Positions 21,201-54,400 of a stretch of 64,000 nt of DNA are shown here, piece by piece. Every line of letters starts with the position of its first letter. Position 1 is the stretch's first letter. Position numbers and translations under genes: made by a program. Source of the stretch: Liolophura sinensis. Its lineage: Eukaryota > Mollusca > Polyplacophora > Chitonida > Chitonidae. Location of the stretch: assembly GCF_032854445.1 (NCBI RefSeq), contig NC_088303.1:12097501-12161500 (forward strand), read 5' to 3'. Under the pieces are notes generated by a model. That model did not search any database and was not told the DNA's origin. It saw nothing but the letters and a program-made list of their open reading frames with translations.

Positions 21201-24200
21201 CCTCAGTTTTATAACCAAACATCCCTGTATGTTTTTTTCTTGTCACAACTGAAAGCTTGAGACAGTCATCACAAATGTTACCACTGCATGTTGTTTGTTT
21301 TATGGTCAGGGATTTGTTTTATTCCTGAAAGTTATCATTGTATGCTGTTAGTGCTGTTTGGGAAATCTTTGGATTTGTGATAGATGGATAAAATTATTTT
21401 GAACAATCTGCGAGCAGTGGATCAATTCATTTACATGCAGTCATTTGTTAGGAGATCGGCAGTTTAGGCCATTTTATGTGATTAATCAAACTTATTTTTG
21501 AGATATAACCATGGGAAGAAATAAATGTAGATATACACATATGTATCATCTATCTGCAGTGATTGTTGTTTTATGTCCTTAACATTTGACTTTTTTTAAT
21601 ACCTGGCGTGAAATACTTGTAAGGTATAAAAACGTAACAAAGCTTTGTGAGATAGGCCACTACAGCTGGGTTGACTGCCTAAAAATGTGGTATTGTAGAA
21701 CTCTATATAATCTAGATTTAGATTGGCCTAGAGTGACATATTACTAGCGAAATAGCTGTTGTACAAAATGAGATTTAATCATTTATGTTTCACTTTGATG
21801 GCCTGATACATTTTCAGTAACACATGATTAATTTCTTTCTTATTGGCGCTGAATTGCAGTCTGCTCAGAATCATCGCAGTGAATTGTTAGCGACTTGCAC
21901 ATATGTGTGTGCAGGACTTGCTCTCATCGTTCATGTACTTCTCATCATCGCCATGGTGATCGTCTTCAGGAATTATGGGAAGGGACTCAAAGGAAAAGGT
22001 CTGTTCTTGTGCTTTATTTATTTTACTTTTTTCTTATTGTTTTATTTAGTTATCCAGCACACAGTGTACGGATAGCAGGCATGTTGTGCTAGGTATGGCA
22101 TAATTGTGTGGTGAAATGTGTGGTTGTAAGATTGTTTTCAGTTATGACCACATTGAGATGATTTGGTCTCGGTCTTGATCCACAGCTACCCTAAATGACC
22201 TAAAATTTCGTCTATGACTAAGCTGCTCATTTTCCCAGATTCTGGGAGTTCTATTGAGTTTAGAAGGTGCTTTGAGAGGTATTTTGGGGCGTAGGGTGGT
22301 ATCCTACTGGGATGAAATCAAACTTTGCCCCATCCCTGGGCAGCTGAGGATGCATGCAAGTCTAATTAAATTCAAATAAATGGCAGTCTCTTCTGCAGCA
22401 TGGCTTTTAGCTCACCTGTTCAAAGTAAAGGCATAGCTTATGTTGTACCTGAGCGTGCGCATAGGCGTCCAATACTAGGGAAAGCAATGTTAAACAAAAT
22501 GTTAGGGGTGGTATCTCAAAAACTCAGAATGGTGTATTGTGTATTAGAAATCAAAGTTAGACAAAATGTTAGGGGTAGCACCTAACATTATGTAGTAACC
22601 TGAAGTTTTGTATGAATATAAAGCAGAATGAGACAGGAATGACAGAATATTCCATCGCTGATGCTCTGTGTGCATATTAATGACCGTAAATTACCAAATT
22701 CACAATATCAGTACTTTATGTATAGAGCTGAAGTTTTGCATTCATGTGTCTCCTACAGACAAGCTCATTGGTAGCCCTGCTATTACATCAAAGTTCTCTT
22801 TAGAATGAAATTGTTGTTGAACCATTCAAAACCTGTCTACATATAGCCTGAAGATAAATAAACTGCTTGCCTGTTAACCATGCTTGCTTACCCCTAGCTG
22901 CTAGACTTGGGATTTCTACTTCAGTTTTTTCATCTAATCCTGACTCATGGTGGTTTGACGCAGGACGCCATTCTAAACGCAGTGAGTAGCTAGGCTGCTG
23001 GGTGTTGGTGCTTTGATGTCTAGTGTCACTTCACCGCTGACATGCCTAAAAGATTATACTTGCATTTTCTCTGCACTCTACATGGCAGATTTTTAACATG
23101 TATTCGGCAGCAAGCAATGTCATATCTTTTTTTCTTTGCTTTTGAAAACAAGACCGCTTGATCATATGAGTTTTACTGTAAGACTTGGAGCAGAAATGGG
23201 CATTTAATTTGATTGGTGTATAATTCAATTTCAGGACTTGCGCACCCAGATTTGTGTGTTGAGAAAACATAAGGCAGAACATGCTTGGAAAGAGTATTGC
23301 ATTAGCTCTCTCTCTTTCAATACATACCATTCTTTTCAGGATTATTTTCTTCAGTAGCAAAAGTTTCGAGATGTTTTTTTTTGTTATTTTATGGAGAGAG
23401 ATTAATGAACGGCCAATTAGCACTATATTGAGATGAATCGATACTGAATTGGTTAATGGCTGACGTGGACAAGGTAGATCGGTCCTAGGTTAATACTTTT
23501 ATTTAGAAAATATTGAGTAAATGTTATGTCACTTTGTAGAGGTTTGACCATAATTGACAGACTATGCAACACTGCATCGAGGCAAAGCTGAGATACAATG
23601 TTGTATTGCTCAAGTCACTCATTGGGGAACTTATTTAGTACCTCTACTATCAATTTTCAAGTGACAAAGTATTAAAATGAACAAGAAGATCGAAACATGG
23701 ACCGTGTCATAATAAACCTTAACTTGGTAAAATAGCCGAAGTTTCCTTTCTTTCGAATGACACAATCCTACTTCTGTAGAATGTCTTGTGAAATCTTTTT
23801 TACATGAGCCAGATCTTCTTATTGCCTGGCCAGAAATTTTTGTTTGGCATTAAGTTGATATTGTCAGGGGGCTGTGGGAAGATACCATCAAGCAGTCAGA
23901 GCAAATAACTTTCCCATTAACCATTGTGTTTTAGTGCTAGGGAGTTACATGCCCCTGTCTGGTATGTCCCTTCATTTGTCTTCTGATAACTTTGCTAAAT
24001 CCCCTGGGTGTAAATGTAGGGTAGGCTGCACCTGACATAAATGGTAAAGTGCTTAATTCCCCCGGGTGTGGATGTAGGGTTGGGGCATCTGACATAAATG
24101 ATGAAGTGCTTAATTCCCCGGGTGTGGGTGTAGGGCGGGGTACCCCAGACATAAATGGTAAAGTGCTTAATTCCCCGTGTGTGAATGTAGGGTGAGCTGC

Positions 24201-27200
24201 ACCTGACATAAATGGGAAAGTGCTTAATTCCACAGATGTGAATGTAGGGTGGGCTGCCCCAGACATAAATGGTAAAGTGCTTAATTCCACAGATGTGAAT
24301 GTAGGGTGGGCTGCACCTGACATAAATGGTAAAGTGCTTAATTCCCCGTGTGTGAATGTAGGGTTGGGCTGCCCCAGACATAAATGGTAAAGTGTTTAAT
24401 TCCCCCGTGTGTGAATGTAGGGTGGGCTGCACCTGACATAAATGGTAAAGTGCTTAATTCCCCGTGTGTGAATGTAGCGTGGGCTGCACCTGATATAAAT
24501 GGTAAAGTGCTTAATTCCTTGGATGTGAATGTAGGGTGGGCTGCACCTGACATAAATGGTAAAGTGCTTAATTCCACAGATGTGAATGTAGGGTGGGCTG
24601 CCCCAGACATAAATGATAAAGTGCTTAATTCCTTGGATGTGAATGTAGGGTGGGCTGCCCCAGACATAAATGGTAAAGTGCTTAATTCCCCGTGTGTGAA
24701 TGTAGGGTGGGCTGCCTCAGACATACATGGTAAAGTGCTTAATTCCCCATGTGTGAATGCAGGGTGGGCTGCCCCAGATATAAATGGTAAAGTGCTTAAT
24801 TCCTTGGATGTGAATGTAGGGTGGGCTGCCCCAGACATAAATGGTAAAGTGCTTAATTCCCCCGTGTGTGAATGTAGGGTGGGCTGCCCCAGACATAAAT
24901 GGTAAAGTGCTTAATTCCCCGTGTGTGAATGTAGGGTGGGCTGCACCTGACTTAAATGGTAAAGTGCTTAATTCCCCAGATGTGAATGTAGGGTGGACTG
25001 CCCCAGACATAAATGGTAAAATGCTTAATTCCCCGTGTGTGAATGTAGGGTGGGCTGCCCCAGACATAAATGGTAAAGTGCTTAATTCCCCATGTGTGAA
25101 TGTATGGTGGGCTGCCCCAGACATAAATGGTAAAGTGCTTAATTCCCCCGGTGTGTGAATGTAGGGTGGACTGCACCTGACATAAATGGTAAAGTGCTTA
25201 ATTCCCCGGATGTGAATGTAGGGTGGGCTGCCCCAGACATAAATGGTAAAGTGCTTAATTCCCCGGATGTGAATGTAGGGTGGACTGCCCCCAGACATAA
25301 ATGGTAAAGTGCTTAATTCCCCCGTGTGTGAATGTAGGGTGGGCTGCCCCAGACACAAATGGTAAAGTGCTTAATTCCCCCGTGTGTGAATGTAGGGTGG
25401 GCTGCCCCAGACATAAATGGGAAAGTGCTTAATTCCACAGATGTGAATGTAGGGTGGGCTGCCCCAGACATAAATAGTAAAGTGCTTAATTCCACAGATG
25501 TGAATGTAGGGTGGGCTACCTCAGACATAAATGATAAAGTGCTTAATTCCTTGGATGTGAATGTAGGGTGGGCTGCCCCAGACATAAATGGTAAAGTGCT
25601 TAATTCCCCGGATGTGAATGTAGGGTGGGCTGCCCCAGACATAAATGGTAAAGTGCTTAATTCCCCGTGTGTGAATGTAGGGTGGGCTGCACCTGACATA
25701 AATGGTAAAGTGCTTAATTCCTCGGATGTGAATGTAGGGTGGGCTGCCCCAGACATAAATGGTAAAGTGCTTAATTCCCCATGTGTGAATGTAGGGTGGG
25801 CTGCCCCAGACATAAATGGTAAAGTGCTTAATTCCTTGGATGTGAATGTAGGGTGGCTGCCCCAGACATAAATGGTAAAGTGCTTAATTTCTCGGATGTG
25901 AAATGTAGGGTGGGCTGCCCCAGACATAAATGGTAAAGTGTTTAATTCCCCGTGTGTGAATGTAGGGTGGGCTGCCCCAGACATAAATGGTAAAGTGCTT
26001 AAATCCCCCCTGTGTGAATGTAGGGTGGGCTGCACCTGACATAAATGGTAAAGTGCTTAATTCCCCGCGTGTGAATGTAGCGTGGGCTGCACCTGATATA
26101 AATGGTAAAGTGCTTAATTCCACAGATGTGAATGTAGGGTGGGCTGCACCTGACATAAATAGTAAAGTGCTTAATTCCACAGATGTGAATGTAGGGTGGG
26201 CTGCCTCAGACATAAATGATAAAGTGCTTAATTCCTTGGATGTGAATGTAGGGTGGGGCTGCCCCAGACATAAATGGTAAAGTGCTTAATTCCCCCGTGT
26301 GTGAATGTAGGGTGGGCTGCACCTGACATAAATGGTAAAGTGCTTAATTCCTTGGATGTGAATGTAGGGTGGGCTGCCCCAGACATAAATGGTAAAGTGC
26401 TTAATTCCACAGATGTGAATGTAGGGTGGGCTGCACCTGACATAAATGGTAAAGTGCTTAATTCCACAGATGTGAATGTAGGGTGGGCTGCCCCCAGACA
26501 TAAATGGTAAAGTGCTTAATTTCTCGGATATGAATGTAGGATGGGCTGCCCCAGACATAAATGGTAAAGTGTTTAATTCCTTGGATGTGACTGTATGATG
26601 GGCTGCCCCAGACATAAATGGTAAAGTGCTTAATTTCTCGGATGTGAATGTAGGATGGGCTGCCCCAGACATAAATGGTAAAGTGGTTTAATTTCTCGGA
26701 TGTGAATGTAGGATGGGCTGCCCAGACATAAATGATAAAGTGTTTAATTCCCCGTGTGTGAATGTAGGGTGGGCTGCCCCAGACAAAAATGGTAAAGTGC
26801 TTAATTCCCCCGTATGTGAATGTAGGGTGGGCTGCCCCCAGACAAAAATGGTAAAGTGCTTAATTTCTCGGATGTGAATGTAGGCTGGGCTGCCCCAGAC
26901 ATAAATGGTAAAGTGCTTAATTTCTCGGATGTGAATGTAGGATGGGCTGCCCCAGACATAAATGGTAAAGTGTTTAATTCCTCGTGTGTGAATGTAGGGT
27001 GGGCTGCCCCAGACATAAATGGTAAAGTGCTTAATTTCTCGGATGTGGAATGTAGGATGGGCTGCCCCAGACATAAATGGTAAAGTGCTTAATTTCTCGG
27101 ATGTGAATGTAGGATGGGCTGCCCCAGACATAAATGGTAAAGTGTTTAATTCCCCGTGTGTGAATGTAGGGTGGGCTGCCCCAGACATAAATAGTAAATT

Positions 27201-30200
27201 GCTTAATTCCCCCGTATGTGAATGTAGGGTGGGCTGCACCTGACATAAATGGTAAAGTGCTTAATTCCCTGTGTGTGAATGTAGTGTGGGGCTGCACCTG
27301 ATATAAATGGTAAAGTGCTTAATTCCACAGGTGTGAATGTAGGGTGGGCTGCACCTGACATAAATAGTAAAGTGCTTAATTCCACAGATGTGAATGTAGG
27401 GTGGGCTGCCTCAGACATAAATGATAAAGTGCTTAATTCCTTGGTTGTGAATGTAGGGTGGGCTGCCCCAGACATAAATGGTAAAGTGCTTAATTCCCCG
27501 TGTGTGAATGTAGGGTGGGCTGCCCCAGACATAAATGGTAAAGTGCTTAATTCTCCGTGTGTGAATGTAGGGTGGGCTGCACCTGACATAAATGGTAAAG
27601 TGCTTAATTCCTCGGATATGAATGTAGGGTGGGCTGCCTCAGACATACATGGTAAAGTGCTTAATTCCCCATGTGTGAATGTAGGGTGGGCTGCCCCAGA
27701 TATAAATGGTAAAGTGCTTAATTCCTTGGATGTGAATGTAGGGTGGGCTGCCCCAGACATAAATGGTAAAGTGCTTAATTCCCCCGTGTGTGAATGTAGG
27801 GTGGGCTGCCCCAGACATAAATGGTAAAGTGCTTAATTCCCCGTGTGTGAATGTAGGGTGGGCTGCCCCAGACATAAATGGTAAAGTGCTTAATTCCACA
27901 GATGTGAATGTAGGGTGGGCTGCACCTGACATAAATGGGAAAGTGCTTAATTCCACAGATGTGAATGTAGGGTGGGCTGCCTCAGACATAAATGATAAAG
28001 TGCTTAATTCCTTGGATGTGAATGTAGGGTGGGCTGCCCCAGACATAAATGGTAAAGTGCTTAATTCCCCATGTGTGAATGTAGGGTGGGCTGCCCCAGA
28101 CATAAATGGTAAAGTGCTTAATTCCCCGTGTGTGAATGTAGGGTGGGCTGCCCCAGACATAAATGGTAAAGTGCTTAATTCCTCGGATGTGAATGTAGGG
28201 TGGGCTGCCCCAGATAAAAATGATAAAGTGCTGAATTCCCCGTGTGTGAATGTAGGGTGGGCTGCACCTGACATAAATGGTAAAGTGCTTAATTCCACAG
28301 ATGTGAATGTAGGATGGGCTGCCCCAGACATAAATGGTAAAGTGTTTAATTCCCCATGTGTGAATGTAGGGTGGGCTGCACCTGACATAAATGGTAAAGT
28401 GCTTAATTCCTTGGATGTGAATGTAGGGTGGGCTGCCCCAGACATAAATGGTAAACTGCTTAATTTCTCGGATATGAATGTAGGATGGGCTGCCCCAGAC
28501 ATAAATGGTAAAGTGTTTAATTCCTTGGATGTGACTGTATGATGGGCTGCCCCAGACATAAATGGTAAAGTGCTTAATTTCTCGGATGTGAATGTAGGAT
28601 GGGCTGCCCCAGACATAAATGGTAAAGTGTTTAATTTCTCGGATGTGAATGTAGGATGGACTGCCCCAGACATAAATGATAAAGTGTTTAATTCCCCGTG
28701 TGTGAATGTAGGGTGGGCTGCCCCAGACAAAAATGGTAAAGTGCTTAATTCCCCCGTATGTGAATGTAGGGTGGGCTGCCCCAGACATAAATGGTAAAGT
28801 GCTTAATTTCTCGGATGTGAATGTAGGCTGGGCTGCCCCAGACATAAATGGTAAAGTGCTTAATTTCTCGGATGTGAATGTAGGATGGGCTGCCCCAGAC
28901 ATAAATGGTAAAGTGTTTAATTCCTCGTGTGTGAATGTAGGGTGGGCTGCCCCAGACATAAATGGTAAAGTGCTTAATTTCTCGGATGTGAATGTAGGAT
29001 GGGCTGCCCCAGACATAAATGGTAAAGTGCTTAATTTCTCGGATGTGAATGTAGGATGGGCTGCCCCAGACATAAATGGTAAAGTGTTTAATTCCCCGTG
29101 TGTGAATGTAGGGTGGGCTGCCCCAGACATAAATAGTAAATTGCTTAATTCCCCCGTATGTGAATGTAGGGTGGGCTGCACCTGACATAATGGTAAAGTG
29201 CTTAATTCCCTGTGTGTGAATGTAGCGTGGGCTGCACCTGATATAAATGGTAAAGTGCTTAATTCCACCAGGTGTGAATGTAGGGTGGGCTGCACCTGAC
29301 ATAAATAGTAAAGTGCTTAATTCCACAGATGTGAATATAGGGTGGCCTGCCTCAGACATAAATGATAAAGTGCTTAATTCCTTGGTTGTGAATGTAGGGT
29401 GGGCTGCCCCAGACATAAATGGTAAAGTGCTTAATTCCCCGTGTGTGAATGTAGGTGGGCTGCACCTGACATAAATGGTAAAGTGCTTAATTCCCCGGAT
29501 GTGAATGTAGGGTGGGCTGCCTCAGACATACATGGTAAAGTGCTTAATTTCCCCATGTGTGAATGTAGGGTGGGCTGCCCCAGATATAAATGGTAAAGTG
29601 CTTAATTCCTTGGATGTGAATGTAGGGTGGGCTGCCCCCCAGACATAAATGGTAAAGTGCTTAATTCCCCGTGTGTGAATGTAGGGTGGGCTGCCCCAGA
29701 CATAAATGGTAAAGTGCTTAATTCCCCGTGTGTGAATGTAGGGTGGGCTGCCCAGACATAAATGGTAAAGTGCTGAATTCCTTGGATGTGAATGTAGGGT
29801 GGGCTGCACCTGACATAAATGGGAAAGTGCTTAATTCCACAGATGTGAATGTAGGGTGGGCTGCCTCAGACATAAATGATAAAGTGCTTAATCCTTGGAT
29901 GTGAATGTAGGGTGGGCTGCCCAGACATAAATGGTACAGTGCTTAATTCCCCATGTGTGAATGTAGGGTGGGCTGCCCCAGACATAAATGGTAAAGTGCT
30001 TAATTCCCCGTGTGTGAATGTAGGGTGGGCTGCCCCAGACATAAATGGTAAAGTGCTTAATTCCTCGGATGTGAATGTAGGGTGGGCTGCCCCAGATAAA
30101 AATGATAAAGTGCTTAATTCCCCCGTGTGTGAATGTAGGGTGGGCTGCACCTGACATAAATGGTAAAGTGCATAATTCCACAGATGTGAATGTAGGATGG

Positions 30201-33001
30201 GCTGCCCCAGACATAAATGGTAAAGTGCTTAATTCCCCCGTGTGTGAATGTAGGGTGGGCTGCACCTGACATAAATGGTAAATGTGCTTAATTCCACAGA
30301 TGTGAATGTAGGGTGGACTGCACCTGACATAAATAGTAAAGTGCTTAATTCCACAGATGTGAATGTAGGGTGGGCTGCCCCAGACATAAATGGTAAGTGC
30401 TGAGTTCCCTTGGTGTGAATGTAGGGTGGGCTGCCCCAGGACGTAAATAATAAAGTTCTTAATTCCCTGGGGGTGAATGTAGGGTGGGCTGCCCCAGACA
30501 TAAATGGTAAAATGCTTAGTTCCCCAAGGTGTGGGTGTAAGGTTGGCTGCCCCAGACATAAATGATAAAGTGCTGAATTCCATGGACGTGAATGTAGGGT
30601 GGGCTGCCCCAGACATAAATGATAAAGTGCTTATTCCCCCGGGTGTGAATGTAATGTGGGCTGCCCCAGACATAAATGATAAAGTGCTGAATTCCCCGCA
30701 TGTGAATGTAAGATGGTCTGCCCCAGACATAAATGGTAAAGTGCTGAATTCCTTGGGTGTGAATGTAGGGTGGGGCTGCCCAAGACATAAATAATAGAGT
30801 CCTTAATTCCCTGGATGTAAATGTAGGGTGGGCTGCCCCAGACATAAATGGTAAAGTGCTTAATTTCCCCAGATGTGAGTATAGGGTGCGGTCCCCAAGA
30901 CATAAATGGTAAAGTGCTTAATGTGAGTATAAGGTTGGCTGCTCCAGACCAGCATTATGGTGGGAGGAAACCGGGCAGAGCCCGGAGGAAACCCACAACC
31001 ATCTGCAGGTTGCTGGAGAACCTTCTCCACGTACTGCCGGAGGGTGGGCTGCCTCAGACATACATGGTAAAAGTGCTTAATTCCCCATGTGTGAATGTAG
31101 GGTGGGCTGCCCCAGATATAAATGGTAAAGTGCTTAATTTCCCCAGATGTGAGTATAGGGTGCGGTCCCCAAGACATAAATGGTAAAGTGCTTAATGTGA
31201 GTATAAGGTTGGCTGCTCCAGGCCAGCATTATGGTGGGAGGAAACCGGGCAGAGCCCGGAGGAAACCCACAACCATCTGCAGGTTGCTGGAGAACCTTCT
31301 CACGTACTGCCGGAGAGGAAGCCAACAAAAGCTGGACTTGAACTCACAGCGACCACATTGGTGAGAGACTCCTGGGTCATTACAGTTGCACTAGTGCGCT
31401 AACCAACTGAGCCACGGAGGCCCCCAGGCATAAATGGTAAAATGCTTAATTCCACGGGTGTGAATGTAGGGTGGGCTGCCCCAGACATACATGGTAAAGT
31501 GCTCAATTCCCTGGATGTGCAGTGATTAATTTTAATGTTTCAGTGCATGTTGGGCTGTCCCAAAGGTGGTGTGATTTGTATTTTTTCTCACAGCATGGGT
31601 TTCAGGGAACTTGAATGCTTTATTTGTTTGATTGTTGTTTATGTCCCGTGAACATTTTACATCTGCTGATTATATCAGAGTGATGGTGGGTCATACCACA
31701 TGTAAACACACCAGGTATATGTGTTTTGTTTTGCACAGCTGTTGTGTATATTACCTGTACTAACATTTTGCAAATTGAAGGACGATATTTCGTAGTATGT
31801 GAGGTTTCATTTAATCTATTAAAACACATTGAAAATAAATCGGAAGTGGTCATATATTCTTACAGCTTTTTGTGTTTCAGGAACAAGGACAAACAATACA
31901 GTATTTACTTAATAATTCAGGTTTAGTTAGGACATTGTGATAAAGTGATTTAACCATGGGTCCTGTCATTTAATCAGGCAGAATGGCCAGTTCTGGAATG
32001 CAGACATAGCTTATTACTGCTCCCTATCTCATCTCCGTTTGATCAAGTCAGATACTTTTCATAAAGCTATGTTTACTACCATAATCCAATAGGCAGGAAC
32101 AACAGATCTACTTGACTCAAAAGCTGATATAATATAGTGTATCCAATAAATTAATAGTTTCTTAAATGATTGACAGTAAAGATGAAACAGCTACAACAAC
32201 CTGATAAGGTAACTGCCTATGACCGATGACAAATAAAATGTGATAACTGAAGCACTTAAAGACAATTTAAGGGACAAAAATGACAGAAACAGTTGGCCCG
32301 CCACATTGTTTAGAGCCATAGTGTTTTCAGTGTAGAGAGCATTTAATTGGCGTCTTTGCAAAAATCCTGTGCCAACCTGAGCAGGAATGTATCTGACTGG
32401 ATAACGATGATGGTCTTTTTAGTTCTGGTAGGCGAAGATAGAGAAGACCTCGGATAAAGGTAGTAAACATTTGAGTGAAATAAAACATAGCGATGTACGG
32501 ATAGTGTCTGATTTGACTTATTAAAGATTCTTTGTCCAGGTTTAATCTAAATTTGAAAAGTGTTGCTTTCTTCTAGTAGGTATTATTCATGAAAACATAA
32601 TTAGTCTGGAAATCTGTCGATAAGATTGATCAGAATATGATTTTTGTGGTAAGTAGCAGAATTTTTTGCTAGGAAAGGAAATTTTCTGTAAGCTTCAAGC
32701 TGTCTCACTCTAGTTATATTGTATATGAAGATAGACACCTATAATGTACTGGCTTGTAAGTCCTGGTGTCGGGACTCAAAAGCTTAATGTTCAGATGCAA
32801 CGTTTGTATACACTAGTTACATCCATTAACTGCAACTCTACACATATAAAGGGATATTGAAATGTAATCGATGAAATAATACCAAACAACTGTTATTTGC
32901 TGTTTTAGCCCTATGGCACTGGTGAGGCACACTATGTGGACCCCAACAATAGCATCAACAACCAATCAGATGAGGTGGCAGGGCTGCCTGGAGATGCCTA
33001 A
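15213..33001 (+). CDS. Multi-pass membrane protein, unknown function (DUF7789-like?)
   Basis: Exons: 15213-15305, 16279-16438, 17195-17334, 17946-18131, 19623-19739, 20423-20509, 21860-21998, 32909-33001; all junctions are GT-AG. Exons 1-7 join cleanly in phase (about 307 residues). Exon 7 ends in phase 1, whereas the last exon (PYGTGEAHYVDP..., stop at 32999-33001) reads in phase 0, so at least one exon in the large intron is missing from this model. The protein has a short polar N-terminus, about eight hydrophobic segments (for example WVFVAVTGLGLPATLILS, IMILTLATGVVLLYSIL, LILACIIGPFIIALGIYIS, ALIVHVLLIIAMVIVF) and a polar tail. An FFYGVLKLDLQLGMS motif spans the exon 4/5 junction. The layout and this motif recall the DUF7789 membrane family, from memory only; no function can be given. 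A Pfam search would settle the family. Confidence 0.75.
16690..17060. repeat. Degenerate about 21-bp tandem repeat in intron 2
   Basis: Repeated CTTCTGTAAATTTGTCACAA with substitutions and variable spacers, about 15 copies, ending about 135 bp before exon 3 of the membrane-protein gene. Confidence 0.75.
17431..17658 (+). mobile_element. Family A SINE in intron 3
   Basis: The shortened head (GGGCCTCTGTGCTAGC) is followed by the usual body and a tail ending AAATAAATACATAAAT. It is flanked by ATATTATTCT at 17421-17430 and 17659-17668, a target-site duplication. Confidence 0.8.
18850..18873. repeat. Poly-T tract
   Basis: An uninterrupted run of more than 20 T in intron 4 of the membrane-protein gene. 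Length is probably variable or error-prone. Confidence 0.8.
20585..20660 (-). mobile_element. Family A SINE tail fragment
   Basis: GTTTTATGGTATACTCAAGA, then TATTTCACTTATACGAC and GGCCAGCATTATAG, match the SINE tail in reverse orientation; the rest is lost. Confidence 0.6.
30941..31043 (-). mobile_element. Partial family A SINE inside the satellite, copy 1
   Basis: CCAGCATTATGGTGGGAGGA through ACGTACTGCCGGAG matches the middle of the SINE in minus orientation. Both ends run straight into satellite sequence. The left junction (GGCTGCTCCAGACCAGC) is the same as in the copy at 31,225. Confidence 0.8.
31222..31425 (-). mobile_element. Family A SINE inside the satellite, copy 2
   Basis: It shares its left satellite/SINE junction and flanking units with the copy at 30,941 but extends to the intact SINE head (CTGAGCCACGGAGGCCCC near 31,425). 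The tail is missing in both copies, so one insertion was later duplicated together with surrounding 57-bp units, about 280 bp apart. Confidence 0.8.
31530..32908. other. Right end of the large intron
   Basis: AT-rich intron sequence. A possible small exon at 31881-31920 (acceptor TGTTTCAG, donor CAG then GTTTAG) would enter in phase 2 and leave in phase 0, but this does not join exon 7 directly. Confidence 0.3.
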
Positions 33002-34342
33002 CTGCAGTCTGTGGAGTTTTGTGAAAAAAATGCTTGTCTGTTTAAAAGATAGGTTATTTTTTACATAACGTGTTGTTCTTTTTTTTTTGTCAAATATCTA
33101 TCTCAAGCATACCCTAGTGCTATATAGTTATACAACTATTAAAATGTAATGCTCAAAAACTGAAGTGTGGTACGTACGCCACATATTACAAGGAGCATCA
33201 CAGTTTAGCTACAACAGTTGTAAATAAATATATTTTAAGCAATTTTTATAAAACTTTACTGTATAGTTTTAAGCATGTTGATTTGATCTAGCAATGCCAT
33301 TTGTATATTTTCACCGTCTTTTTATTGTTATGTTGAAATCCCACTCTCATGGTAAAGCAATTTAGGAGCATGCTATATGTGAAATTTTGTGTTAATTGTG
33401 AAGAGCTTAATGAGATATTCAGAATAAATCTTTAAAGAGTTCGCAAAATGAAGAAGCATTTACTTTACTGGGTTGTCATTCATCCCGCTTGAGGTGCAGT
33501 GATATCCCTTTTGCTTTTGCCACGATACATCACCTCTAAACCTTATACCCTTGGCATAAACAAAATATCAATGCAAGCATCAGTGAAGTAAAAGAATTTA
33601 TGATGCTTATATTATCAATAGCTTACGTTTCCTTCCCTTTTTCAAAGGACTAAGTTATTCTACACCTGAACATTTTAAACTTTCCTATATACTTTATGAT
33701 ACTGTGTTGTGCATAAATTTCTGTTTTTGTTGTTACAGGATTTCTCCTACATACCTGTACATGTACTATATCACATTCAGCTGTTCTTTGGGGGGTTTTT
33801 TTTCTTTGTTTTTTCTTTTTCATTAATGTGCATTTCTGTAGGAAAATTTGTATACAATATGTCCGACCTAATGACTTTATGATGCATTTTTGCTCACCTT
33901 GCAGTTGCAGAATTATAAAGTGTATGAAAAACATATACTACAAGCTGAATATTGTTTTCTACCGCCTGGCCTTGTATATTGTATAGTTTTAATCACATAG
34001 AAATATTTTCATATATACAGGTCCGAACACATGGAAAGATGGAAATATTACCGTACCTTACTGTCGCACCGTTTTTTTAAATAAAGTTATTATAGTACTT
34101 ATTTGCATTGACAACTTGTATGTCTCATAGAGTACCTGACTGTACACATAAAGTGACGCTTGCGATTTGTCGTATAGACTGGTAGAATTCTATAAAATCG
34201 AAACCTGAATTGTTATTGATTTCAAATTAGTTGAAAGGTGTACAAGTTGTATAAAATACGCCACGCCACAAATCGCTTATTCATTGTGAATGTGGCTCTA
34301 TACGCCATGGAACGCCCATTTCCAGCATGCTTTGAAAATAAA
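33002..34342 (+). other. Probable 3' UTR and flank of the membrane-protein gene
   Basis: No coding sequence after the stop. AATAAA signals occur at 33423-33428, 34080-34085 and 34337-34342. Which is used cannot be told from the sequence. Confidence 0.5.
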
Positions 34343-34539
34343 CTGTTTTTTTTTGTTTTTGTTTAAGGAGAACACTTACAAGTACAAATGCATGTGCTCT
34401 GTGTTTTATTTACCACTTGTACAACTAGTCAAGACTACATGTATACACTGCATGTTCTGCCAAACATAGAATCAGGCATGATTATAGTTATATGTACAAA
34501 TTCTCACGCTGGTTCAGAGGATTAAAACTCCTGCTGGCT

Positions 34540-34655
34540 TCGATTGTCGCGCTCTTGACCAATGAGGTTGCGTTTTCGAATCCCTCTCTGGGTCACTGTG
34601 GTTTTCTCCACGCACAAATCTGACTGTCGTCGTATAAATGTAACATTCTTATGTA
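34540..34655 (+). mobile_element. Possible degenerate tRNA-like SINE head
   Basis: TTTTCGAATCCCTCTCTGGG resembles a B-box region and CTGTCGTCGTATAAATG resembles a family A tail. The match is weak and no target-site duplication was found. Confidence 0.35.
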
Positions 34656-34983
34656 CCCTGTCAGACAACAAGCATAAAGGTAAATATCTTATTCAATCTC
34701 AGTTTTATCTTATGGATGGTGTAAAGGCATTTGTTATTGTATATACAACCCAGAGTACAGAGAATTTGACACCAAAACCCTGTGTGAAGCAGAACACTCG
34801 GGCATTCTCTCCAAGATTGTAAAATGATGGAGACGCCTTTCAGACTTACTTCTGAATTAACAACTTGTGGCGCAGACTAATGATATAAATGACATAGTAT
34901 GACAAATTACCTATTGCTTTCTGGGAGACGCTAACTTGCAAATGCCTAATGGCAAAAAAAAGGAAATTACACTGTACAGATAC

Positions 34984-35453
34984 AGATTACAGATAATCGT
35001 TAGATTGTGTACACACAGGTAAAGATTATAGATGATGGTGAAATTGTGTACATACAGGTAAAGATTATAGATGATTGTGAAATTGTGTACATACAGGTAA
35101 CGATTACAAATGATGGTGAAATTGTGTACATATAGGTAAAGATTATAGATGATGGTGAAATTGTGTACATACAGGTGAAGATTAAAGATGATGGTGAAAT
35201 TGTGTACATACAGGTAAAGATTATAGATGATGGTGAAATTGTGTACAATCAGGTAAAGATTATTGATGATGGTGAAATTGTGTACATACAGGTGAAGATT
35301 AAAGATGATGGTGAAATTGTGTACATACAGGTAAAGATTATAGATGATGGTGAAATTGTGTACATACAGGTAAAGATTATTGATGATGGTGAAATTGTGT
35401 ACATACAGGTAAAGATTATAGATGATGGTGAAATTGTGTACATACAGGTAAAG
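34984..35453. repeat. 39-bp minisatellite, about 12 copies
   Basis: Unit GATTATAGATGATGGTGAAA then TTGTGTACATACAGGTAAA. Copies are very similar, with sporadic changes. The period is a multiple of three and frames are open on both strands; the predicted peptides are pure repeats. Each unit contains ACATACAG next to GTAAAG, which resembles a back-to-back acceptor and donor. Confidence 0.93.
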
Positions 35454-35464
35454 ATTCAAGCAAC

Positions 35465-36720
35465 ATGTAGCATCTGATCGAATGAATTGAATGTATCGGC
35501 CTTGAAATGGGACTGGTTGAGGTTTAAAGATATGCATGTTAACAATTTCTGCGTTCAGAATCAAAATCATATGAGGAGAGGAATAGACCTACTGAATGAA
35601 GAGTAGGGTGTGGGTGGGGGATGTCAGTTTGCTAGCCAAGCTCTATATTTAAAACTCGTGCGTATTGAAACCTCATGGACAGTCAAGGGTTTAGCACACT
35701 ACAGACGCTGAGACCTTTGTCGCTGCCCCACTCGTTATCCTAGTTTTCAAGAGCTGATAGTATTTTTATGAGTTTTAAAGGTCTCTGTTCTACGTACTTT
35801 GGAACCCTCAGAAAAAAAGATTTTTGAAAGATGTTCAGCTTAAACAATGTCAAGGTCACTAGTTATGACATGAATACATCAGGGGCATTTCAAATTTAAA
35901 TATGTTCTAGCTGTGTAGTCGTGTGAAGTATATGTCATCCAAACACGTAAAGCGTTGGGGGAGTAATTAAACTACTACAGCGATAAGCTGAGCATACTCT
36001 GTAGGGATATATTGGGACTTTTGGTGTCATTAGTTTTGGGTCCGTCTGCTACATGGAAACAAAAGTTCACATCGGACGTGAAAATATCTGTGGACTCAGA
36101 GATTCCCGGACTCATGTGGACTCATGAGGCACATTTTTGGGCGACAAAGCATCAGATATTCCTGCCTCCATGATCGTCCGGTGATAACGCACAAGACGAC
36201 ATAATGCTATTCCCTGTACTGCAAATAGCGCGTAACTTTGTCAAGGTTACAGATTTCCTCGATTATTTCCCCTTATTCTATAGGCCTGAGATCGTCAGTG
36301 GAGTCGGGAAGCGAGGCTGGTAACAGGGGTGTAACCGGCCTGGGAGCTTCCATTATGCCATTCTTGTATACTATAGAGCTTGGTCACTTGGTGTATTATA
36401 ACTGGATTGTACAAATGTACAATTTGTACAATTAGAAGAAGGGATCAAGCATTGGCCCCCGCGGTGTCATTATAATACATTTGAAAGCAAATGAGAAGTG
36501 GGGGATGAACTATGCCAGGCAACGCAGTAAAGGGTCAAGGGCCAAGGACTCTGGGACCTTATGTGGCCCTACACGTATTTGAGCATATTTTACGACGAAA
36601 GAAATATTCATCCTCAATGTTATGAGTAAGTCTTAATTTTGGCTAACAAATTTATTTACTATCTATAAATCTACAAGTCATGTTGGCCCACTTACTTTCC
36701 ATACACCAGCCCCGATAACA
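35465..36720. other. Intergenic, nothing recognised
   Basis: No coding segment, RNA gene or clear repeat seen. Confidence 0.5.
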
Positions 36721-48400: not shown

Positions 48401-51400
48401 TTCTTGGTGTCCTCCATCTATGATACTGAGTGCTGTCATATGAATATGAAATGTTCTTGAGTAGGGCTGTTTGGGTGGTTATGCTTGAAGCTTGTTGAAG
48501 ATCATGCGCTTATCAGCCACTCATGGAGCCTACACATTGAGCCCACAGGGTCTAGTCAACTAACTGGTCAAGTCCAACCCATCTCTCCCCTCCCTGTACA
48601 CAGAAAAGATAATTTTCACAATATTTCAGGTAAGTTCCCATTTTAACAAAATATTTCAGTGACTTAGAGCATACATTTATTAACACATATACGTTATGTA
48701 TGTGCAAACTTTTTCTCATGTCAGGCCCCACATCAAGGAAATTTTTCAAGGAATAGCTGCAAAATCAGGAAAAGAGCCCTGCTGTGATTGGGTAAGTTTG
48801 TTCTTTCAAAGTTGATGTATACACCATTACCAAAGTAGTTTTTACACATGCATGTTACTTTCCTCTAGCCAGTCTGCTTTCTTCCAAGCAACATTAATCC
48901 ACTGATTATCATCAAGTGAAGTAATAGATGATATAGATGAGGCAAAGCAAATATATGTATATTTCAGTCGCATGTTTTTATGTTTAATATGATTGGCAGG
49001 TTGGCCCAGAAGGGGCGGGGCATTTTGTGAAGATGGTCCACAATGGCATAGAGTATGGTGACATGCAGCTTATCTGCGAAGCCTACCATCTAATGAAGGA
49101 TGCCTTAGGCATGCAGCAGGATGAAATGAGCTATGTGAGTTGTCTCCCTTTATATATGCTCCAATATAAAGCTGATAAATACAGGATCTATATTTATGAA
49201 CCATGATTGAAACATAATTTCTATTATAATCCTTGAAATTTTTGCACGTCACTAAAATTATGATACATAAAGCACTGAATTGATGTGGTGAATGTGGGTT
49301 TCAAATGCTTAGGGGATCAAAGACTGAATATGTATATTGGAAAAATGTAAAGTCTACATTAGAAAAAGAACATTATTAATATAAAAGCAATGGTAGGCAA
49401 TTGGTGTATTTTGCTCATTGCATTTCAAAAGTTACATTTCATTACGTTTTTGTTCTAGGTGCTGGAAGAATGGAACAAAGGTGAACTGGAGTCATTTTTA
49501 ATCGAGATAACTAGAGATATCTTGAGATATAAAGAGAATGGAGAATATCTTCTGCCTAAGATAAGGGACTCGGCCGGACAGGTGAGCTAGCAGCATGCCT
49601 TAATCAATGCCGTGAGTGTTTTAAAGATTCAGTTTTCTAGGTTTTGAAGGATAGACCTAGGTCATGAAGCTGTCTTAGCTAATGCTAAAAGGGGTATAAC
49701 TAAGGAAGCACACCACCAGACCTCACATTATAGCAGGGGCATTTGGCATGCTCTTTCCCATGCATCTGTCTTCTCATCCTCTTCACATTTTGTTAGTGTA
49801 TGATGGAATTTGTTAACAACGTTGACATAGTTGATGAACCGTGATACTTATTGGATGTGTATGTGGTGTCTCAAAGTGAGACACTGATGTTTATGCAATT
49901 TTCCATGCTTTTTTTGTCTTCCATAAACCTATGTGACCTTTTTGAATTTGAACATGTATTGTAAATTAAGAATTACAGGCGTGTAAATTAAACATTTGAG
50001 GTGAAATAGCACTGCCTTAGTACATCTTTTGTTGGTAGAACATTGCTCCCTAAAGGTGCATGCTCTTCACTTCAACACAAAGCCTACTGATAATTGGAGA
50101 TAATGGTAATCATGACATGTACATTTTCATGCATACATAGTGAAGACAATATGTTTGTTCTCCAAAGTTCAATTGACTAAATGAAATATCAAGAATAAAT
50201 TAAAATCAAATGTTGTAGTTTGTAATAAATTGTCCAACTCTTTTCAGAAAGGCACAGGGAAATGGACAGCTATATCTGCCTTAGACTATGGGGTACCTGT
50301 TACTCTCATAGGTAAGCATTTGTGTGCAGACGCTGGCATGCATTACATCTTTACATACATTTCCTTGAATACCAACCTTGTCTCATTTTGAATATACGGT
50401 GCTACCACTGTCTCCTTCGTCTTTGTTTCTGATCTGACATGTTTCAGCCCAGACAGGTGTCATTTGTGTCTGTCTGCAAGGCATAGGTAAAATAATATCA
50501 GATATGATGCCAGAAATTCACCCAAGTATCATAACTGAGAGTGTTTTTAGTTTTAACTCTCTGTTATTGGGGTAAATTGGTCAATATGGCAGTGATATTT
50601 GTTCAGAAAAAAGGTTCTTACAACTGTGCACTGTGAAACTTGTAAAATGCTTTCTCACCTGGCTTTACTAATGCTCTTCAAAGTATATGCACTCCTTTAG
50701 TTCCCGGTATTAATCTTTCTTTGGTACAGTGTAAGGCAGAATTTTTGTACTTGCCTGCTCAAATACACTTTGATGGTAGAAGGTACACAAGTATGGTAGC
50801 ATTGCAGCAGAAATTAATGTGTTTTTACTATGACTTGAATTTCTGTTTTTGATATTTACAGGTGAGGCAGTGTTTTCTAGCTGTCTGTCCTCTATATCTT
50901 CACTCTTGACTGTTTGATATTTCCAGGTGAGGCAGTGTTTTCTAGCTGTCTGTCCCCTGTATCTTCACTCTTGAGTGTTAATTATTTGCAGGTGAGGCAG
51001 TGTGTTCGAAGCTGTCTTTCCTCTGTATCTTCACTCTTGACTTTTTGATATTTCCAGGTGAGGCAGTGTTTTCTAGCTGTCTGTCACCTGTATCTTCACT
51101 CTTGAGTGTTAATTATTTGCAGGTGAGGCAGTGTGTTCCAGCTGTTTCTCCTCTATATCTTCACTCAAGACTGTTTGATATTTCCAGGTGAGGCAGTGTG
51201 TTCTAGCTGTCTGCCTTCTGTATCTTCCCTCTTGACTGTTTGATATTTACAGGTGAGGCAGTGTTTTCTAGCTGTCTGTCCTCTGTATCTTCACTCTTGA
51301 CTGTTTGATATTTACAGGTGAGGCTGTGTTTGCGCGCTGTCTCTCCTCTCTTCAGCAGGAGCGTGTACAAGCCAGCAAACGCTTCGCAGGGCCAGCCAAG

Positions 51401-54400
51401 ACCAAGTACGAGGGTGATAAGAAGCAGTTCATTCAGGATATCAGACAGGTGTGTGTATATCAGTTACCAAATGTCACTGAAGGATGTGCCAGCTAAACGA
51501 CGGTGGACTAAAAACTATGATACAGTACACAGTACTTTGTGCACATGTCTGTTATAATCTGCTATTCCTAATCCAGTCATGTATTGTTGGGAATACAAGT
51601 GAAAGAGATGATTGACTTGCACAGATTTTCCAGTAAGATAATTTTATATTAGCTGTCTCTTTCTGAAGATTGCATCTGTGTTTCATTGTATATGACTTGG
51701 TGATGAGGCAAAATGTACATGACCATGACCTCTACTGAGCTGGTGAAGCTCTGCAGTGGTGGTATAAGGGGAATAACTCTGCTTTTGTGTTGGTGTGCAA
51801 ATTTGGTTCATACATGTTCATGTATTTATATTTTATTACATGTGTCACATGGCGCCCCTTACCATGTATCTGGTCTGATTAGACCATGCACGTCTTGTTA
51901 GGAGCAGCATACTTCTCACAGTTCATATAAATATCTTGGATTTATCAAAACCAGGTTTTCAGTTTGAAATTGTCTGATGACACCACTGCACATGTACATG
52001 TGTGTATTATTTCTTTCCTACAAATTTTTTTTGGACTGGATCCTGTAGTAAGACAGAACAAGACGGAAGAACTTATTTATGCTGGACATTTCAGATATTT
52101 TGATGACACACTTTTGCTTTCTCTAAAAGCAAATTTTGGAGAAATGTGTTTATGGCCATATTACTTCATGGTAGAATGCATTCTTGACAAAAAAAAAATA
52201 CTTACAAACAATGTTATAAATAAAAAAGATTATTTAGTACTTTTCAACTCTAACTGATTGATAATTTTGGTGAATTGTGCAAACTGGTGTGAACAAGGCT
52301 TGCTTAATATTGATCATAATATATTTACAAGAAGGGTTTTGTATTTTCAGGCGCTGTACGCTTCAAAAATTGTGTCGTATGCTCAAGGGTTTATGTTAAT
52401 GAGGGAAGCAGCGCGTGAATTTGGCTGGAAGCTGAACTACGGAGCTATTGCTTTGATGTGGAGGGGAGGATGTATCATCAGAAGGTGAGTATTGATATGT
52501 GATAACATAGGTGCATGAGGTGGTGAATGGTTTTGTTTGTACTATGTATGTATGCATGTAATAATGTGTAATAAATTGATTTTCCTTCTGGTAACACTTG
52601 TTTCTGTAAATTCATTAAACGAGAGTAGTAGTGTTCATTCGTTCCGAGCCTCTGCCAAGAAACAAATGAAAACTATTATTTGAGTTTAACAAATTTGATA
52701 TCGATGGTGACAAATTTCATATTTTATTTATCCCATAAATGCCTTATTGTAAATTTATAGCGGAAAAAAGTCATTACGATTTAAGCTTTCGGAAACTGCG
52801 CTGAAGTCTATCCACGTATTGATATCACACATTTAGGCCAAGTGAAGCGTCATCAGTAAGTGACAAGTACATGGCGGATTATAATATAGTACAGACAAAA
52901 TTTATTTACATAATGACTTTTTTACACCATAGACATGTCAAAAGATTGTTTTATACAATATATCGTTCAATACGTTAATATTTATGAGAAGAATATTACA
53001 TTTTACTACAGAAAGAATTACTGTCTGAAAATAGACAAATTTCACTTGCGCTGAGTACACACCATACAACTGTCAAAAACCAACTGACAGTTTAAAATCA
53101 CAAAGGTTGAACCAGCGAAATAGTCTACAGAGTATTGATTTCTAACAGAATTTAAGTACGGTAGATATTATTGGTTTCATCTGGATAATGTCAAACTTGG
53201 CGAAGCACAAAGTTTTAGGCCCATAGAATAATGTTAAGAAAAATAAAATAAGACCTACCTGATGTTTCCGTTCTGGGGATATTAGCTCTGTGGCATTCAA
53301 TGCCGACGCCTTCCACATTGATTTGATTATCTCTTGTCACATTTATAACTCTGGCGTGTCCTTTTTTTTTTCATTTTTTACCATATCTCCTGGTGGAAAA
53401 TTGGCCATGTTGACATTTTCAGACGACAAGAAAAAGTTGCAAAAAAAGTAGTGCCTGTACCGTCTAGTTGTAATTTATGATTGGTCGATTTTGATGAATG
53501 AAAAGATACACGGACCAATCAAAATGTCAGAATTTATATTACATGTGGTGCATATCAAAACGATATGTCATGTCTCTATTACCTGGAAATCTGAACATGT
53601 ATGGGATAGATGCTATTATAATTTGTTATTTGTTATGTACATGTGGAAAGTATTTATTACAAAATCTAGTTAAATTATGAAATTTGATCTGATACTTTTA
53701 ACAGGGAGGCCTACAAAGTTTTGGCTCATGGCAGTTTCCTTTGTCACATTGTAATTATTTTGCTTTTTTTGTTACTGTGTATTTGTGTGTAATATTTGTA
53801 ATTGTGTTTTTTGTGACAGTGTGTTCCTGGGCAACATCAAGGAAGCCTTTGAGAAGAATCCAGATCTGAGCAATCTCTTGTTGGATGATTTCTTCCACAA
53901 AGCCATTGAGAAGTGTCAGGTACACATGAGTTCAGCAGATTATTAAGTGAATAGTAAGAGGATAAAGTTCCTCACATAAACTTGAATTCCATCCATGAAG
54001 AAGATCTCCATTATTACCACATAAAGCAATGATGTCGAGGTTTTTAACATTACTAAGTAACAAGTTATACCATTTTTATTGATAAGTAATCCTGGCTGTT
54101 CTATCTCATGGCAGGCCTCTTGGAGGAAGGTTGTGTCAACAGCTGTACTCCTGGGTATCCCCACCCCTGCCTTCAGTACTGCCCTCGCCTTCTTTGATGG
54201 ATACCGCTCAGAGAGACTTCCTGCTAATCTCATACAGGTACAGTGAGACAGATTAAAACTGGTGGGATTATCACTGGACTGGTTAAGTAGTATTTGTCTT
54301 GAAAATTCCAGTGACAATGATTGGATAATGGGGAACATTAAACTTGTGAAATTCCTGCCTTTAACAATTCAACATTTCTTTACTGCTTTGCGTCACACTT

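Follow-up and report, generated by a model that had tools for sequence, protein, structure and literature searches.

The 64,000-nt window of the Liolophura sinensis genome analysed here (contig NC_088303.1, positions 12,097,501 to 12,161,500 of the forward strand; coordinates below are those of the window) contains, at the end of intron 9 of the gene PGD, a tandem array in which the boundary between this intron and exon 10 is repeated. The array most likely is a near-neutral minisatellite that arose by tandem duplication of this intron-exon boundary, of the type called mirages in amphioxus (PMC3087553; PMC3902484). The tandem unit spans the intron-exon boundary of a real gene and, at 65-66 bp, lies inside the reported range of 10-160 bp; the array is thus a boundary minisatellite of the mirage type, here in PGD of a mollusc, and taken alone an ordinary member of its kind.

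The host gene is PGD, as an earlier sequence-only reading of the window had stated. A model joining thirteen exons at AG/GT edges between 45918 and 55111, the first coding exon not included, encodes 478 residues and has the 6PGD chain 4gwg_A as its top PDB match (E = 2.6e-268, aligned over residues 1 to 477). This chain, which we take to be human 6PGD, aligns without gaps across the exon 9/10 junction, and the product carries the domains 6PGD (Pfam E = 5.5e-135) and NAD_binding_2.

The motif CAG/GTGAGG (the slash marks the splice boundary) occurs eight times in the array, with the true start of PGD exon 10 as the eighth copy, exactly where the sequence-only reading had placed the copies; the first exon-like base of each is the first position of its row in Table 1, and the successive distances between them are 65, 65, 66, 65, 65, 65 and 65. 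The sequence CAGGTGAGG is present eight times in the window, every time inside the PGD array, whereas 100 dinucleotide shuffles averaged 0.42 occurrences and never exceeded 2. Tandem Repeats Finder (TRF) reported the array with 85% matches, and the 594-bp stretch holding it was found at a single location in the 609 Mb and 632 contigs of the assembly searched. Seven units thus lie head to tail from 50862 to 51317, each with GTGAGG at its start and CAG at its end. The previously proposed 65-bp unit holds for six of the seven, the third being 66 bp, and AG and GTGAGG are indeed kept by every copy, but the pyrimidine tracts said to accompany them are only modest (9-12 of 16 positions).

Each unit consists of two halves, about 32 nt resembling the start of exon 10 followed by about 30 nt resembling the end of intron 9. 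Compared with the real exon 10, the exonic half has 5-8 mismatches over 32 positions in six of the seven decoys; unit 3 carries a one-base insertion and shows a larger difference in the ungapped comparison. Most of these differences are common to the decoys, suggesting that expansion was preceded or accompanied by divergence of the first duplicate or by homogenisation of the decoys. Between units, the number of differences is 1 for units 2 and 4, 2 for units 1 and 7, and up to 14 for other pairs, a pattern that, from the sequences, would be as in a minisatellite with block duplication.

For the splicing potential of the decoys, we used a simple, approximate matrix of human type. The decoy acceptors score 9.08-9.74 bits, similar to the real exon 10 acceptor at 9.41 bits (2.96-11.82 bits for the 12 other PGD acceptors), and every copy read as a donor scores 11.3 bits, exceeding 11 of the 12 real PGD donors, in line with the previous suggestion that CAG/GTGAGG is plausible as both acceptor and donor. 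An acceptor and a donor are therefore adjacent in 8/8 copies, as at recursive sites, and the site-to-site distance equals the repeat unit of 65 or 66 nt, which could serve as an intron. Translation running from exon 9 straight into a decoy reaches a premature stop for 7/7 decoys, a feature of poison exons that had been predicted for the use of a decoy as a plain exon start, but the stop lies inside the first unit for only 4 of 7. Skipping of exon 10 leads to an early stop as well. Since each copy is a possible acceptor and donor, whole-unit removal from a decoy up to 51318 would restore the normal mRNA, and decoy use followed by re-splicing could thus be without consequence for the message.

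These features suggest how the array may have arisen and been tolerated. The founding segment would have straddled the boundary, with ~30 nt from the end of intron 9 and ~32 nt from the start of exon 10; it would have been duplicated, and the duplicate would then have expanded and in part been homogenised. Because exon 10 happens to open with GTGAGG (codons G/GT GAG), every copy has CAG/GTGAGG and every unit is a GT-AG segment. The real acceptor lies nearest to the exon 10 donor, and exon definition would probably favour it. If a decoy were joined first, its strong donor would still allow the rest of the units to be spliced out, with the same mRNA as the result, whereas leftover units would carry a stop codon and the transcript presumably would be destroyed.

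Boundary arrays of this kind are also found elsewhere in the genome (Table 1). To score them, we applied a fixed test in which a 32-nt probe spanning the edge of the neighbouring exon had to match copies on the same strand at 21 or more of 32 positions. The case set comprised 15 of the 18 AAGGTRAG arrays on contig C1 among the 100 matches listed (those at 514251, 5936424 and 38800809 were left out), and the control set all 10 GAATGGAA arrays on C1 among the 100 matches listed. A repeated exon boundary was detected for 8/15 arrays with the donor-like motif and 2/10 with the control motif, a difference that is not significant (Fisher p = 0.21). Among six loci with the seven listed CAGGTRAG arrays, one passed the test (Dus) and an annexin array (L011), a boundary array by eye, failed with 1 copy and was not counted. 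Exons were identified by visual inspection of open-frame lists, with the case or control status of each locus in view; the L061 locus is array throughout and offers no flanking sequence for a judgement, and those of L047, L049, L053 and L069 have arrays that run to one end of the fetched stretch. Given that exons may have gone undetected, the counts of boundary arrays are lower bounds. Ankyrin, Dus, annexin, Aminotran_3, astacin, 7tm_1 and adaptin-C2 passed the Pfam cut-offs; the labels coiled-coil-like, EF-hand-like and GGA/BTAF1-like are tentative descriptions, given by eye or from general resemblance. L051, L056 and L068 gave no Pfam match.

Table 1. Features of the PGD array, followed by exon edges repeated in the 32-nt probe test
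Feature	Position	Strand	Copies	Set or source	Remarks
PGD exon 9	50248-50311	+			ends ATAG; donor GTAAGC at 50312
PGD intron 9	50312-51317	+			1006 nt; houses the array
Tandem array	50848-51349	+	7.7	TRF	period 65
Decoy unit 1	50862-50926	+			65 nt; GTGAGG...CCAG; decoy acceptor AG at 50860-50861
Decoy unit 2	50927-50991	+			65 nt; 1 difference from unit 4
Decoy unit 3	50992-51057	+			66 nt
Decoy unit 4	51058-51122	+			65 nt
Decoy unit 5	51123-51187	+			65 nt
Decoy unit 6	51188-51252	+			65 nt
Decoy unit 7	51253-51317	+			65 nt; its end is the real acceptor, TTTACAG
PGD exon 10	51318-51448	+			131 nt; real eighth boundary copy; coded protein ends ...DIRQ
Exon 10 donor	51449-51454	+		human-type matrix	GTGTGT, 9.67 bits, vs 11.3 for GTGAGG at exon start
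PGD exon 10 edge			8	32-nt probe test	
L045			16	AAGGTRAG set	ankyrin (passes Pfam cut-off)
L048			3	AAGGTRAG set	Raptor (PDB match E = 2.1e-29)
L049			21	AAGGTRAG set	DUF3535 exon just under Pfam cut-off, no PDB match
L051			7	AAGGTRAG set	exon without Pfam match
L052			5	AAGGTRAG set	exon beside adaptin-C2 exon; adaptin match is in the exon after the array
L056			22	AAGGTRAG set	exon without Pfam match; 57-nt units
L057			25	AAGGTRAG set	7tm receptor (7tm_1, Pfam E = 4.8e-25)
L058			13	AAGGTRAG set	weak spectrin match, under Pfam cut-off
L064			6	control set	astacin (E = 1.4e-15)
L068			9	control set	EF-hand-like by eye, no Pfam match; acceptor side
L013			4	CAGGTRAG loci	Dus; 54-nt array beside the array picked

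With PGD counted in the total, 10 of the 12 boundary arrays are on the donor side of their exon, where the copies would compete as 5´ sites; PGD and L068 are those on the acceptor side. Two of the donor-side arrays showed further features. The L056 array (contig C1, 17065288-17067695, minus strand) lies in a frame that is open for 296 codons, such that splicing from donors further downstream could extend the protein in 19-residue steps. In the Raptor intron, the L048 units look by eye like a shrunken whole exon with both edges, as would result from duplication of an exon with loss of an internal part.

Some of the conservation we observed weighs against neutrality. Across the seven PGD units, 48 of 66 aligned columns are invariant, and these include all nine columns of the splice core CAG/GTGAGG (p = 0.045), with a longest invariant run of 15 columns (p = 0.094); for the PGD units alone, conservation of the splice core is marginal. 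Among the 11 arrays with at least four copies, the splice dinucleotide matched the array consensus more often than the average remaining column did in 10 (Wilcoxon p = 0.0098), the exception being L045. Seven of these 11 arrays had been chosen by a GT-containing motif, and the other four all agree. This hint of selection on decoys could reflect either a disadvantage of broken copies or a lower mutation rate at these bases.

One alternative is that the units are dual-specific, recursive sites that routinely are used as such, with exon 9 spliced first to a decoy and the 65n nt still left then taken out in steps. This would fit the presence of both sites in 8/8 copies, with acceptors scoring like the real site and donors above nearly all others in the gene. 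However, the 11 other introns measured in PGD are 195-1335 nt, all longer than one 65-nt step, and hence only longer steps look comfortable. In addition, the acceptor-side array L068 exists despite AG/AT in 9/9 copies, which cannot re-splice, indicating that tolerance is independent of dual specificity and does not need recursion, although dual specificity may help tolerance in PGD. Stepwise removal of units is possible; that it is the routine is unlikely. The sequence-only reading had gone further and proposed a tunable poison-exon or recursive device, and the premature stops from 7/7 decoys are what a regulated poison-exon or retention switch tuning PGD levels would need. Yet most intronic extensions this long are expected to hold premature stops, the units differ at up to 14 positions, the conservation of the PGD core is marginal, and similar arrays lie at exon edges of unrelated genes, which suggests a shared process of mutation and not control specific to PGD. 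Regulation thus is unsupported, and we regard such a switch as highly improbable. The other suggestion made at the time, a neutral expansion against which the real site has to prevail, fits better, and we consider a near-neutral boundary minisatellite likely.

The array might also be seen as an intermediate of intron gain, in which an AGGT proto-splice site has been duplicated and a unit is to become a new exon/intron boundary. The duplication does carry AGGT, as in the tandem-duplication model (PMC4974935; PMC3087553), and variable tandem repeats at exon-intron boundaries in human segmental duplications reportedly form novel introns (PMC2812944). As judged from the sequence, however, the position in the mRNA is unchanged, the predicted PGD protein being colinear with 6PGD across the junction, which makes this alternative quite improbable. 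Repeat arrays are prone to mis-assembly, and one mirage is described as wrongly assembled in a draft (PMC3087553). An artefact in PGD is next to impossible, though, given that the units differ from one another by 1-14 positions, unlike a single read error repeated, and that exon-edge arrays are also found in other genes of the assembly.

The boundary-minisatellite interpretation can be compared with several known systems. The amphioxus mirages in Adh3, the globins BflGb6 and BflGb9, troponin C and PGBD5 (PGBD5 added, with Adh and troponin C cited, in PMC3902484) resemble the PGD array in having a tandem unit that spans the intron-exon boundary, many units that keep AG/GT, sizes of 10-160 bp and a functional copy that adjoins the exon body (PMC3087553; PMC3902484). 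For amphioxus, RT-PCR is reported to suggest that regular splicing is undisturbed, and some arrays were checked by RT-PCR or haplotype comparison (PMC3087553; PMC3902484), whereas the array described here comes from a mollusc genome sequence and lies in PGD. The repeats in human segmental duplications are likewise minisatellite-type, located at exon-intron boundaries and able to change gene structure, indicating that the kind is not confined to amphioxus; for these, transcripts are reported to support longer exons or novel introns, while no new intron position is present in PGD (PMC2812944). By analogy, the nearest mechanistic relative is the array of tandem dual-specific sites in human UBC, in which AG/GT is found at every unit boundary and a unit may be an intron or be kept, but UBC units encode ubiquitin, are multiples of 3 and are variably spliced, whereas the PGD units of 65/66 nt add stops (PMC10809524). 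Recursive sites and ratchet points share the juxtaposed acceptor and donor; in Drosophila they are described mostly for long introns and with molecular evidence (PMC8605326), compared with an intron of 1006 nt in PGD. Finally, intron gain by AGGT duplication, as for potato RdRp and others, also makes GT-AG segments, but the PGD duplication is at an existing intron edge and a new intron position was not seen (PMC4974935). A literature search of titles and abstract openings, with most subscription journals outside its coverage, found no boundary minisatellite in a mollusc, and the human segmental-duplication repeats were its one relative outside amphioxus (PMC2812944).

We also examined how common such arrays are. 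Three CAGGTRAG motifs at minisatellite spacing gave 3672 matches, compared to 689 for the pattern read backwards; per single site, the values were 6.13% vs 2.91% backwards for CAGGTRAG, 3.19% vs 1.29% for AAGGTRAG and 1.39% vs 0.88% for CAGGCRAG. As overlapping matches inside an array were each counted and a few large arrays can dominate, these counts are support, not proof, that donor-like motifs are favoured in tandem arrays. The 32-nt test of the 24 other PGD boundaries gave 1 copy for 22 and 2 copies for two. None of 30 fn3 exon loci, which partially overlap and represent six gene clusters with 18 loci from one of them, had more than 2 copies in the same test, nor was a boundary array seen at these loci by TRF and reading, though L025 and L038 were scored on the wrong strand and are weak nulls. 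Boundary arrays thus look uncommon per exon, yet not rare among the sampled minisatellites. Three further candidates were set aside: an aminotransferase exon ~60 nt from an array (L012; by eye not a boundary array), a possible PhzF-like exon (E = 0.0031, below the cut-off) ~300 nt from the control array L062, and a short repeat adjoining an fn3 exon end (L018), which is not an edge copy.

Boundary minisatellites seemingly are frequent in this mollusc genome, and the PGD array together with 11 further genes, from small samples, suggests a broader phenomenon, beyond amphioxus and recent human duplicates. We speculate, with considerable doubt, that splice boundaries here are genome-wide hot spots of minisatellite birth, at which mutation linked to transcription or splicing repeatedly places copies of exon edges in introns, the copies being tolerated since most keep functional dinucleotides and can be spliced out, stepwise or by competition. 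If this were true, the genome would be a live factory of new introns and exon extensions. The arrays provide natural test cases for how the spliceosome chooses among near-identical neighbouring sites and for whether duplicated boundaries commonly give rise to introns or lengthen exons.

Several other repeats were noted. TRF returned 42 rows for the window, among them a 57-bp array with 121 copies at 23993-30922. A 39-bp array at 34975-35456 has 12 AGGTRA on the + strand, mostly ACAGGTAAAG, with one frame open by eye, and a six-frame Pfam search of the surrounding 33001-36602 detected no domain at E 0.01. Rfam gave 0 matches at the gathering threshold in the window. At another locus (L028, 760-1120), the units of a 42-nt array hold a TTTTCTTCAG acceptor with a AAGGTAAGT-like donor close by, like a row of micro-exons; a parent exon was not found. 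Elsewhere in the assembly, contig C99 carries seven cox1 copies at ~15.5-kb spacing, a tandem concatemer of the mitochondrial genome, and the cox1 copies of the assembly contain 8 TGA codons. Protein and tRNA genes on the mitochondrial contig C632 follow the chiton (Katharina) type of order, which together with the hemocyanin matches below marks the genome as molluscan, probably that of a chiton, and rejects amphioxus, a source first considered in view of the mirage literature. The hemocyanin domain PF14830 has 8 matches in a row on a single contig.

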